Source: Emticicia aquatilis
GTDB taxonomy: Bacteria > Bacteroidota > Bacteroidia > Cytophagales > Spirosomataceae
Length of the DNA stretch: 64,000 nucleotides
Reading direction: 5' to 3'
Assembly: GCF_014644295.1 (NCBI RefSeq)
Contig: NZ_BMKK01000003.1
Location: 372,001-436,000 of the forward strand
Shown: one piece after another, positions 36,418 through 38,927 of the stretch
Layout: each line of letters starts with the position of its first letter
Position numbering within the stretch: the first letter of the stretch is position 1
Notes under the pieces: model-generated
Databases searched by the model: none
The model's input: only the letters and a program-made list of their open reading frames with translations
What the model was told of the DNA's origin: nothing
Made by a program: the position numbers and the translations under genes

Positions 36418-37077
36418 ATGAAAAAAGCATTAACCACTATTTTAGTTTTTGTAAGCATTCTTAGTTTTGCACAAGTGCGTCCAGCTACGCAATACGGTTT
36501 CAAACTTGGTATCAGCGATTCTAAAACTGCCATCATTAATAACCGTACTAATATTACTCCTAAGCTAAAAAATAATATTAATGCAGGAGTGTTTTATCGT
36601 TGGAATCTGAAAAAAATTAGCATTCAACCCGAAGCATATTTTCAGGCAAAAGGAGGAAGTTTTAAAGCAACAACCAATTTTGCTGAAACAGGAAATACCA
36701 TTCTTCGTAATGACTACCAATACCTTACGGGCTCGTTGGTTTTGGGGTATGAAGTTGCCAAAAATATACATTTAGTAGTTGGCCCTGAATATGGCTATGC
36801 ACTCAATGCTGGTACAAAGCGTGGTCCTTATGCTCAGACTGATTTTAGTATAGCTGGTGGTGTGCGTATAGATATGCTTGATGCGGCTCATTTGTTTAGT
36901 CTCAACATCAGATATGTACACGGTCTGACAAATACAACTAACAAAACCTACACCCTCGAAGATAAATCGGTTATTCCGCTTAACTTCCAAAACCGTACAT
37001 TACAGGTATCGGCGAGTTTCAATTTCAGCGATTACTACCGTTGGGCAAAAAAAGACAAAACCAAAAAGAAAAAATAA
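36418..37077 (+). CDS. Outer-membrane beta-barrel protein (PorT-like fold)
   Basis: A 219-residue protein with a signal peptide (MKKALTTILVFVSILSFAQ) and alternating amphipathic strands: FKLGISDSKTAI, INAGVFYRWNLKKISIQPEAYFQ and LVLGYEVAKNIHLVVGPEYGYAL. This pattern fits the small outer-membrane beta-barrel family (OMP_b-brl_2) common in Bacteroidota. The C-terminus is very lysine-rich (KKDKTKKKK), which is odd for a barrel and would lie in the periplasm. Role unknown. Confidence 0.8.
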   Translation: MKKALTTILVFVSILSFAQVRPATQYGFKLGISDSKTAIINNRTNITPKLKNNINAGVFYRWNLKKISIQPEAYFQAKGGSFKATTNFAETGNTILRNDYQYLTGSLVLGYEVAKNIHLVVGPEYGYALNAGTKRGPYAQTDFSIAGGVRIDMLDAAHLFSLNIRYVHGLTNTTNKTYTLEDKSVIPLNFQNRTLQVSASFNFSDYYRWAKKDKTKKKK

Positions 37078-37111
37078 GGCAGGTATTTTTTTCAAATACA
37101 AATAATTGCTT

Positions 37112-37119
37112 TAATTTTG
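37112..37119 (+). promoter_or_regulatory. Predicted -7 box of the tyrS leader
   Basis: TAATTTTG is a perfect TAnnTTTG match. A leader-peptide ATG follows only 4 nt later (37124), so the transcript may be leaderless or nearly so. Confidence 0.55.
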
Positions 37120-37123
37120 CCAT

Positions 37124-37171
37124 ATGAAAAAACAAGTGTCATATAGTGTATTGTATTATTGTTTCGGATAA
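37124..37171 (+). CDS. Tyrosine-containing leader peptide of tyrS (predicted)
   Basis: A 15-codon frame encoding MKKQVSYSVLYYCFG then TAA. Three of its 15 residues are Tyr (7, 11, 12), including a tandem pair. It lies between a perfect -7 box and an intrinsic terminator, with tyrS 160 nt downstream. This is the classical layout of ribosome-mediated attenuation, in which scarce charged tRNA-Tyr stalls the ribosome at the Tyr codons. It is a prediction from sequence; no homology can be claimed. Confidence 0.55.
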   Translation: MKKQVSYSVLYYCFG

Positions 37172-37250
37172 AATCCGCATCAAGCAAGATAACTATGTAC
37201 ATTTTTGATATATAATTAATCCTCTTGGTGCAAGCTAAGAGGATTTTTTT
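37165..37250 (+). promoter_or_regulatory. Predicted tyrS attenuator (competing hairpins)
   Basis: Three pairings are visible. A pause-type hairpin CGGAT/ATCCG (37165-37169, 37173-37177) spans the leader stop codon. An antiterminator can form from GCATCAAG (37177-37184) with CTTGGTGC (37224-37231, one G-U pair). A terminator stem AATCCTCTT/AAGAGGATT (37218-37226, 37237-37245) is followed by seven T. The antiterminator uses part of the terminator's left arm, so the two exclude each other. Confidence 0.55.
37218..37250 (+). terminator. Intrinsic terminator in the tyrS leader
   Basis: A 9-bp stem with a 10-nt loop and T7 tract, located before tyrS and not after a gene, which points to attenuation. 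Confidence 0.75.
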
Positions 37251-37256
37251 ATAGTT

Positions 37257-37277
37257 CTCCTCGTCCCTAAAGAGGAG
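37257..37277 (-). repeat. CCCCTTTAGGGG family, divergent inverted copy
   Basis: CTCCTCGTCCCTAAAGAGGA is a diverged inverted copy of the element at 37300-37321. Confidence 0.5.
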
Positions 37278-37299
37278 AAAATTACGTAACTTTTTTTAG

Positions 37300-37321
37300 C
37301 TCCCCTTTAGGGGCGGGGGGG
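37300..37321 (+). repeat. CCCCTTTAGGGG family repeat
   Basis: CTCCCCTTTAGGGGCGGGGG with a seven-G run, 9 nt before the tyrS ATG. It occupies the ribosome-binding region. Confidence 0.6.
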
Positions 37322-37330
37322 TGATATACT

Positions 37331-38653
37331 ATGAATTTCATCGAAGAATTACGTTGGAGAGGAATGTTGCAAGATGCCATGCCAGGCACCGAAGAACAAC
37401 TCAATAAAGAAATGACGGCTGGGTACATCGGTTTCGACCCAACCGCAAAATCATTGCATATCGGTAATTTGGCAACCATTATGTTGCTCAAACACTTCCA
37501 ATTGGCAGGCCATAAACCTTACGCCCTCGTGGGTGGAGCAACAGGTATGGTAGGAGACCCTTCTGGAAAATCGGCTGAGCGTCAGTTTTTATCAGAAGAA
37601 GTGTTGAAGGCTAACCAAGATGGCATCAGAAACCAGCTGGTAAAGTTTTTGGACTTTGATTGTGGTGCAAATTCGGCCGAAATGGTTAATAACTACGATT
37701 GGTTCAAAGAAATCGGTTTCTTAGAGTTTTTGCGTGAAGTAGGTAAATACTTGACTGTAAACTACATGATGTCGAAAGATTCGGTAAAAAATCGTCTGAC
37801 AACGGGTATTTCATTCACCGAGTTTTCTTATCAATTATTACAAGGCTACGATTTCTACTGGTTATACAAAAACAAAAATGTTCGCCTACAAATGGGTGGC
37901 TCTGACCAGTGGGGAAATATCACAACAGGTACAGAATTGATTCGTAGAAAAGAAGCGGCAATAGTTGGCGATGTTGAAGATGAAAATGTAACACACAAAG
38001 CATTTGCTCTTACTACACCATTGATGACAAAAGCCGATGGACAGAAAATGGGTAAAACAGCAGGTGGCGAAACCATCTGGCTCGATGCAAATCTAACTTC
38101 ACCTTACCAGTTTTATCAATTTTGGTTAGGCCAAGACGATAGAGACGTACCGAAATTATTGAGAGTATTCACTCTATTCTCGAAAGAAGAAATCGAATCA
38201 ATCGAAGCCCAACACGCTGAAGCACCACATTTGCGAATTGCCCAAAAAGCATTGGCAAAAGACGTAACTTCTCGTGTACACGGCGAAGAACAATATGAAT
38301 TAGCCGTAAAAGCCTCAGAGGTTTTATTTGGAAAAGGAACCCTCGAAACCCTCCAAAGTTTAGATGAAGCCACTTTTACGAGTGTATTTGATGGTGTTCC
38401 AACGACCGAAATCTCGCAAGAGGCATGGGCTGGCTGTGCAAGTGTATTAGATTTGATTTCGGTTACGACAAATAACGAAGTTTACGCATCAAAAGGTGAA
38501 GCACGCCGTGCCATGCAAGGGAACGCCGTAAGCATCAATAAAGTAAAAATCACCGATGAAAAACTGCCAGTTGCTGAATTACAACTCTTACAAGGAAAAT
38601 ATTTATTGGTAGGTAAAGGCAAGAAAAACCATATTGTGAAAATAGTAGAATAA
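37331..38653 (+). CDS. tyrS: Tyrosyl-tRNA synthetase
   Basis: A 440-residue class I synthetase (TyrRS, bacterial TyrS type). The HIGH-like motif is in FDPTAKSLHIGNLATI, the tyrosine-binding segment is QLLQGYDFYWLY followed by QMGGSDQWGNI, and the KMSKS-like loop is ADGQKMGKT. A C-terminal S4-like RNA-binding domain covers about 370-440 (SKGEARRAMQGNAVSINKVKI, YLLVGKGKKNHIVKIVE). The upstream region carries a predicted Tyr leader peptide and attenuator. Downstream come a double heptamer array and tRNA-Trp. Confidence 0.96.
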   Translation: MNFIEELRWRGMLQDAMPGTEEQLNKEMTAGYIGFDPTAKSLHIGNLATIMLLKHFQLAGHKPYALVGGATGMVGDPSGKSAERQFLSEEVLKANQDGIRNQLVKFLDFDCGANSAEMVNNYDWFKEIGFLEFLREVGKYLTVNYMMSKDSVKNRLTTGISFTEFSYQLLQGYDFYWLYKNKNVRLQMGGSDQWGNITTGTELIRRKEAAIVGDVEDENVTHKAFALTTPLMTKADGQKMGKTAGGETIWLDANLTSPYQFYQFWLGQDDRDVPKLLRVFTLFSKEEIESIEAQHAEAPHLRIAQKALAKDVTSRVHGEEQYELAVKASEVLFGKGTLETLQSLDEATFTSVFDGVPTTEISQEAWAGCASVLDLISVTTNNEVYASKGEARRAMQGNAVSINKVKITDEKLPVAELQLLQGKYLLVGKGKKNHIVKIVE

Positions 38654-38856: not shown

Positions 38857-38927
38857 ACGGGCATGGTGCAATGGTAGCATACGGGTCTCCAAAACCTTTG
38901 ATCTGAGTTCGAATCTTAGTGCCCGTG
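38857..38927 (+). tRNA. trnW: tRNA-Trp (CCA anticodon)
   Basis: A 71-nt cloverleaf. The acceptor stem ACGGGCA/TGCCCGT is perfect and the discriminator is G. The D arm is GTGC-AATGGTA-GCAT, the anticodon loop CTCCAAA has anticodon CCA, and the T arm is CTGAG-TTCGAAT-CTTAG. The 3' CCA is not encoded. It lies directly upstream of secE, the usual position in many bacteria. Confidence 0.95.

Follow-up and report, generated by a model that had tools for sequence, protein, structure and literature searches.

The DNA analysed here is a stretch of 64,000 nucleotides from Emticicia aquatilis, referred to below as the window. It contains a gene which we take to be tyrS, encoding tyrosyl-tRNA synthetase, on the basis of the name given in an earlier note on this DNA and of general knowledge. 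The gene is preceded by a compact leader element. The features of the locus are as follows, the antiterminator having a length of 8 bp.

37112–37119, forward strand: -7 box TAATTTTG of a Bacteroidota promoter, recognised from the sequence, with a gap of 4 nt between box and ATG in all four intact copies of the element
37124–37171, forward strand: leader frame MKKQVSYSVLYYCFG, with ATG at 37124, tandem Tyr codons at 37154–37159 and the stop codon TAA at 37169–37171
37165–37169 and 37173–37177, forward strand: CGGAT and ATCCG, complementary in sequence, over the stop codon
37134–37204, forward strand: long leader hairpin enclosing CGGAT/ATCCG, from folding and from conserved pairing over four copies
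37177–37184, forward strand: 5' arm of the antiterminator, GCATCAAG, pairing with 37224–37231
37224–37231, forward strand: 3' arm of the antiterminator, CTTGGTGC, within the 5' arm of the terminator, from sequence, folding and conservation
37218–37250, forward strand: intrinsic terminator, with a 12-pair stem (37218–37245) and seven T (37244–37250)
37331–38653, forward strand: tyrS, 440 aa, the presumed target, an open reading frame with one match in the whole genome

The earlier note had described the -7 box, a 15-codon frame, the CGGAT/ATCCG hairpin, the antiterminator, the terminator and tyrS, and each was found at the coordinates that it gave. The Tyr residues at positions 7, 11 and 12 of the peptide and the run of seven T between the terminator stem and tyrS are likewise present. 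The longer hairpin around the CGGAT hairpin, which the note did not mention, is the conserved structure. The fold of 37124–37255 as a whole has a z score of -4.74, and none of 200 shuffled sequences folded equally well. The interval between terminator and tyrS (37250–37331) holds an inverted pair of REP-like repeats able to form one very stable hairpin just 5' of the tyrS start, and part of this pair has matches at 20 further genomic sites.

The box motif TAnnTTTG occurs 54 times on the forward and 49 times on the reverse strand of the window, and so is not rare in itself; within 36901–37331 it occurs once on the forward strand. A sigma-70 promoter scan was also run on the region, and promoters of the -7-box type lie outside its coverage. 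According to the section consulted (PMC6847099), -7 boxes of F. johnsoniae have their G at -5, and on this basis the predicted +1 is 37124, which is the first base of the leader ATG. This prediction, together with the constant 4-nt gap, implies that the transcript of the leader peptide is probably leaderless. In the relevant sections of two papers, leaderless or near-leaderless transcripts are a minority in other Bacteroidota: about 3.7% of 5'UTRs are shorter than 10 nt in B. thetaiotaomicron (PMC7366714), and 5.5% are leaderless in F. psychrophilum (PMC9723704).

Homologues of the element were recovered both by blastn and by a covariance model. Of the 11 genomes of the genus, three, with the window's own among them, gave a blastn match to the element. 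A covariance model built from these three copies added a further strong copy in G006 (E 3.7e-17, this copy being outside the model) and a weak one in G007 (E 0.011). The genus therefore contains four intact copies (window, G005, G001 and G006) and one decayed copy, in G007, which was excluded from the alignments and from counts based on them. The four intact copies form two related pairs. No second copy was found in the window's own genome at E<=10.

In G005 the element is again upstream of tyrS. In G001 and G006 it lies upstream of adjacent genes for tRNA-Trp(CCA) and tRNA-Cys(GCA), and is therefore not specific to tyrS. The two tRNA cassettes share a common neighbourhood, with a neighbouring protein 87% identical. 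They are extra copies: G001 and G006 each carry another tRNA-Trp adjoining tyrS, as does the window at 38857, and another tRNA-Cys, of a kind that each of the five genomes examined for it possesses. The tRNAs of the cassette are not identical in the two genomes, but both are called, with discriminator bases G (Trp) and T (Cys). Matches to the cassette are found in 3/11 genomes, namely these two and G007, where a decayed leader and tRNA cassette lie around 4513–4838 of contig C1 (L124). Here the leader has lost its start codon, ARAGORN calls no tRNA behind it, and blastn detects tRNA remains; a downstream gene has 71% identity with a gene close to the cassette of G006, and the gene directly upstream is different. 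G001 and G006 also carry arrays of further tRNA genes, for Leu, Tyr, Phe and Arg in G001 (L120, contig C5) and for Leu, Phe, Arg, Pro and Glu in G006 (L121, contig C6), in which tRNA-like remnants separate the genes, as happens in mobile elements. No further leaders were seen by eye in these arrays.

The four intact leaders align without insertions or deletions through codon 22. The frame register is preserved across them, with synonymous changes at conserved residues. The predicted peptides of the relatives are MKNQVSYSLYYYCFGSKPHQVR (G005), MKNQMVYNAFSCWYGLSPHQAR (G001) and MKNQMAYNTNCCWYGQSPHQAR (G006), all three ending in PHQ[AV]R before the stop codon. The window frame stops earlier, and past this stop reads NPHQAR in register, followed by a stop. 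The start, MK.Q, is constant and the middle codons vary. Before tyrS (window and G005), codons 11–14 are Tyr-Tyr-Cys-Phe, while before the tRNA pair (G001 and G006) they are Ser-Cys-Trp-Tyr or Cys-Cys-Trp-Tyr. Codon counts were compared with those in versions of the frame shuffled from codon 4 onward. The three Tyr in 12 codons of the window leader were matched by 2.2% of shuffles, and the two tyrS-type leaders have p values of 0.022 and 0.002 for Tyr. For Cys plus Trp, the two tRNA-type leaders give p values of 0.20 and 0.105, which are not significant. It would thus appear, from the sequences, that one scaffold has been re-aimed by codon changes between tyrS and the tRNA pair. The match of codons to genes is suggestive only, because it comes from two related pairs and not from four independent cases.

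The same pattern can be read in another way, namely that the leader is a general sensor of translation, which responds to any slowing of the ribosome (by antibiotic, by cold, or by arrest at the conserved C-terminal end) and in which codon identity is incidental. Leaders of such a type exist (PMC4191407), and the retention of the start and the PHQ[AV]R end around differing middle codons would fit, as would the non-significant Cys/Trp enrichment. However, the conserved bases CCGCATCAAG are held constant by pairing in the RNA as well, Tyr is enriched at tyrS, the codon set varies with the gene, and the early stop deprives the window's own peptide of the PHQAR end. We therefore regard a general sensor as unlikely.

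The pairing was assessed over the four intact copies. For the long hairpin, 91 of 100 cells are paired and five pairs show two-sided change; shuffles equalled the paired cells in 3/500 cases and the two-sided pairs in 25/500, and sliding the hairpin by 1–3 columns left 31–44% of cells paired with at most one two-sided pair. For the terminator, all 40 cells are paired, with two two-sided pairs (equalled by 19/500 and 348/500 shuffles, respectively). A terminator scan of the region found 3, compared to 3.2 expected in shuffles, which is no better than chance, and the case for the terminator rests on the pair changes in the relatives. One G-U pair of the terminator is kept in all four copies, as would be expected if a second partner holds this arm fixed. 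The antiterminator is conserved (32 of 32 cells paired); its changes are one-sided only, so that covariation provides no proof of it. Its stability was equalled by only 2/1000 shuffles of the upstream stretch in the window, and by 2, 23, 9 and 6/1000 over the four copies. Just past the terminator in the two tRNA-type copies (L108 and L109), the 3' arm of the terminator can also pair with a downstream copy of GCCGCTTA, forming an 8-bp hairpin; in the best fold of G001 this hairpin is a competitor of the terminator.

The stability of the antiterminator is of importance for a second alternative, that the unit is an independent gene, equipped with a promoter and a terminator of its own, which encodes a small RNA or small peptide and simply happens to adjoin tyrS or the tRNA genes. 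The unit is indeed self-complete and found at two unrelated places, and the full-length RNA folds stably into the terminator. Against this, such a stable antiterminator is rare in shuffles, and each of the four copies is followed on its own strand by a gene 38–87 nt past the T run, with no TAnnTTTG in the interval. An independent gene is thus distinctly improbable.

The folding of the RNA was predicted for different positions of the ribosome, whose footprint was assumed to extend 12 nt beyond the A-site codon. With the ribosome at codon 11, 12 or 13, the nascent RNA is predicted to form the antiterminator in all four copies (P 1.00). At codon 16 or 22, the ribosome covers the antiterminator arm (at codon 16, all but its last base). 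The folding thus agrees with two proposals of the earlier note, that the structures are mutually exclusive and released by a stalled ribosome, and that a ribosome at the stop codon masks the antiterminator arm; the alternative structures are also present in the relatives. In the complete RNA the terminator is preferred in every state, and therefore the switch must be kinetic. Predictions for untranslated nascent RNA differ between the copies. In G001 and G006 the hairpin holds the arm (0.99 and 0.98). The window's own RNA favours the antiterminator (P 0.98). For G005 the result is mixed, the best fold having the arm of the terminator paired close to the 5' end. The long hairpin can retain CATCAAG when no ribosome is present. 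A default-off state is accordingly clean in the models of G001 and G006 only, and is not cleanly predicted for the window or G005.

On the basis of these structures, their conservation and their pair changes, we consider that 37112–37250 is probably a ribosome-mediated transcription attenuator of tyrS, sensing the charging of Tyr-tRNA. We infer the following sequence of events. Transcription would start at the A of the leader AUG or at a neighbouring base, and the peptide would be translated from an almost leaderless mRNA. A shortage of Tyr-tRNA(Tyr) would stall the ribosome at the tandem Tyr codons, where it would cover CGGAT and open the long hairpin. The freed GCATCAAG could then pair with CTTGGTGC as soon as this is made, so that the terminator could not close and tyrS would be transcribed. 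With an ample supply of charged tRNA, the ribosome would proceed to the stop codon and mask GCATCAAG, and the terminator would form.

A T-box-like element, binding tRNA directly by pairing of UGGU in the terminator arm to the tRNA end, is most implausible: UGGU would be complementary to a tRNA end of sequence ACCA, and the long hairpin does contain internal loops, but UGGU is constant in the four copies although the discriminators of the cassette tRNAs are G and U, so that the UGGN does not vary with the discriminator of its cognate tRNA, and the Rfam T-box models are unmatched, both at gathering score in the window and among the 27 matches (E<=10) in 37060–37340. The single Rfam match at gathering score in the window is a tRNA. 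Below the threshold, the leader was matched best by ncr1575, which was rejected, since it scores 31.1 bits against a cut-off of 60 and agrees best in the terminator. Bacteroid-trp (RF01692) was also rejected: it matched 0/11 genus genomes at E<=0.1 and is absent from the matches in 37060–37340 up to E 10, the control for this search giving a match in 1/14 genomes.

The distribution of the element at tyrS is limited. The gene is present in 10 of the 11 genus genomes, and was not found in G008, which is 81% complete. Two of the ten upstream regions have the leader (G000 and G005), seven have another hairpin, and one (G002) has neither. The other hairpin, TGCCACGC..GCGTGGCA, lacks a T run and is found in the 5' region of tyrS at L093, L094, L096, L097, L098, L099 and L100; it is possibly another regulator of tyrS. 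The tyrS locus of G002 (L101) has a REP-like repeat pair, similar to that of the window, directly past the upstream gene. Among 80 tyrS loci taken from genome_contigs, the best of at least 593 confirmed ones, a model search gave a best E of 0.7, with none passing, and a script that looked for a Tyr-rich frame plus a terminator found 0/80, the window and G005 being positive in the same script. One of these 80 loci (L009) is probably from the same genome as G009. The earlier note had asked for conservation upstream of tyrS in related Cytophagales, and this mostly fails. Its proposal of Tyr-leader attenuation is still the best reading, with alternative structures that hold in the relatives. In its favour, G005 has a homologous element at tyrS with the Tyr codons preserved; against it, 8/10 tyrS upstream regions of the genus lack the element, and the intact copies are few (four) and related.

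In a tree of tyrS, the leader needs two changes that are forced by well-supported branches; with only two leader rows, shuffled labels equal this in 500/500 cases, and the tree shows that the leader is interleaved, no more. One explanation of the interleaving would be exchange of the 5' region by recombination.

Nothing credible was found outside the genus in samples of 390 genomes from the order and 395 from the phylum, using stricter filters by which weak matches are lost. Model R1 matched G000, G005, G006 and G344 in the order sample; the G344 match is at the start of a coding frame of 503 aa and is taken as chance. Model R2 matched G000 and G587 in the phylum sample; the latter, with no tRNA by ARAGORN and no terminator seen by eye, is also taken as chance. 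The exact core pattern occurs in 3 of 200 family genomes, all within the genus. Five pattern matches in viral contigs were rejected, none being scored by R1 at E<=1. In phages and plasmids, among the matches listed (20/125 and 20/43 records), only the tRNA part of the query matched.

Attenuators of aminoacyl-tRNA synthetase genes are described, in the section consulted, for pheST of gamma-proteobacteria and for trpS and leuS of Streptomyces (PMC1262725). The tyrS leader resembles them in having a leader frame rich in cognate codons, an antiterminator and a terminator before a synthetase gene. It differs from them in the pairing of Tyr with tyrS, in its occurrence in Bacteroidota, in the predicted leaderless start, and in having a homologous copy before tRNA genes. 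Within Bacteroidota, Bacteroid-trp RNA (RF01692) is similarly a predicted case of leader attenuation, as far as described in the parts consulted (PMC2864571, PMC6414381); unlike the tyrS leader, it serves trp operons, and no sequence relation was found. For F. psychrophilum, clues to leader-peptide attenuation at amino-acid operons and structured 5'UTRs at synthetase genes are reported, with alaS, pheA, hisG and others named in the relevant section, and not tyrS or tRNA genes (PMC9723704). A synthetase gene that swaps its sensing system between relatives is known from the exchange of the hisS attenuator; that case concerns another gene and other phyla, and the text consulted contains no mention of Bacteroidetes, Bacteroides, tRNA genes or tyrS (PMC2965389). 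The statement in the earlier note that such control is not known from Bacteroidota is thus too strong for leader attenuation in general, which has been predicted there (PMC2864571, PMC6414381, PMC9723704). In the literature searched, whose coverage excludes most subscription journals, we found no Tyr leader on tyrS in Bacteroidota and recognised no leader-peptide attenuation of tRNA genes.

The tyrS element is likely to be a functional attenuator, and its most surprising form is that in the relatives, before tRNA genes. More tentatively, we hypothesise that in this genus one scaffold may sense tRNA charging through re-aimable codons, with Tyr driving tyrS, and Cys and Trp driving the extra tRNA-Trp/tRNA-Cys pair. 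The latter would amount to feedback, read from a leaderless transcript, on the charging of the pair's own tRNAs. If this is true, the targets of leader attenuation in Bacteroidota, a phylum in which few RNA regulators have been tested so far, would grow by a synthetase gene and by tRNA genes, the latter being the more unusual addition. The homologous copies, with different sensing codons in front of different genes, would then constitute a natural experiment on codon specificity.
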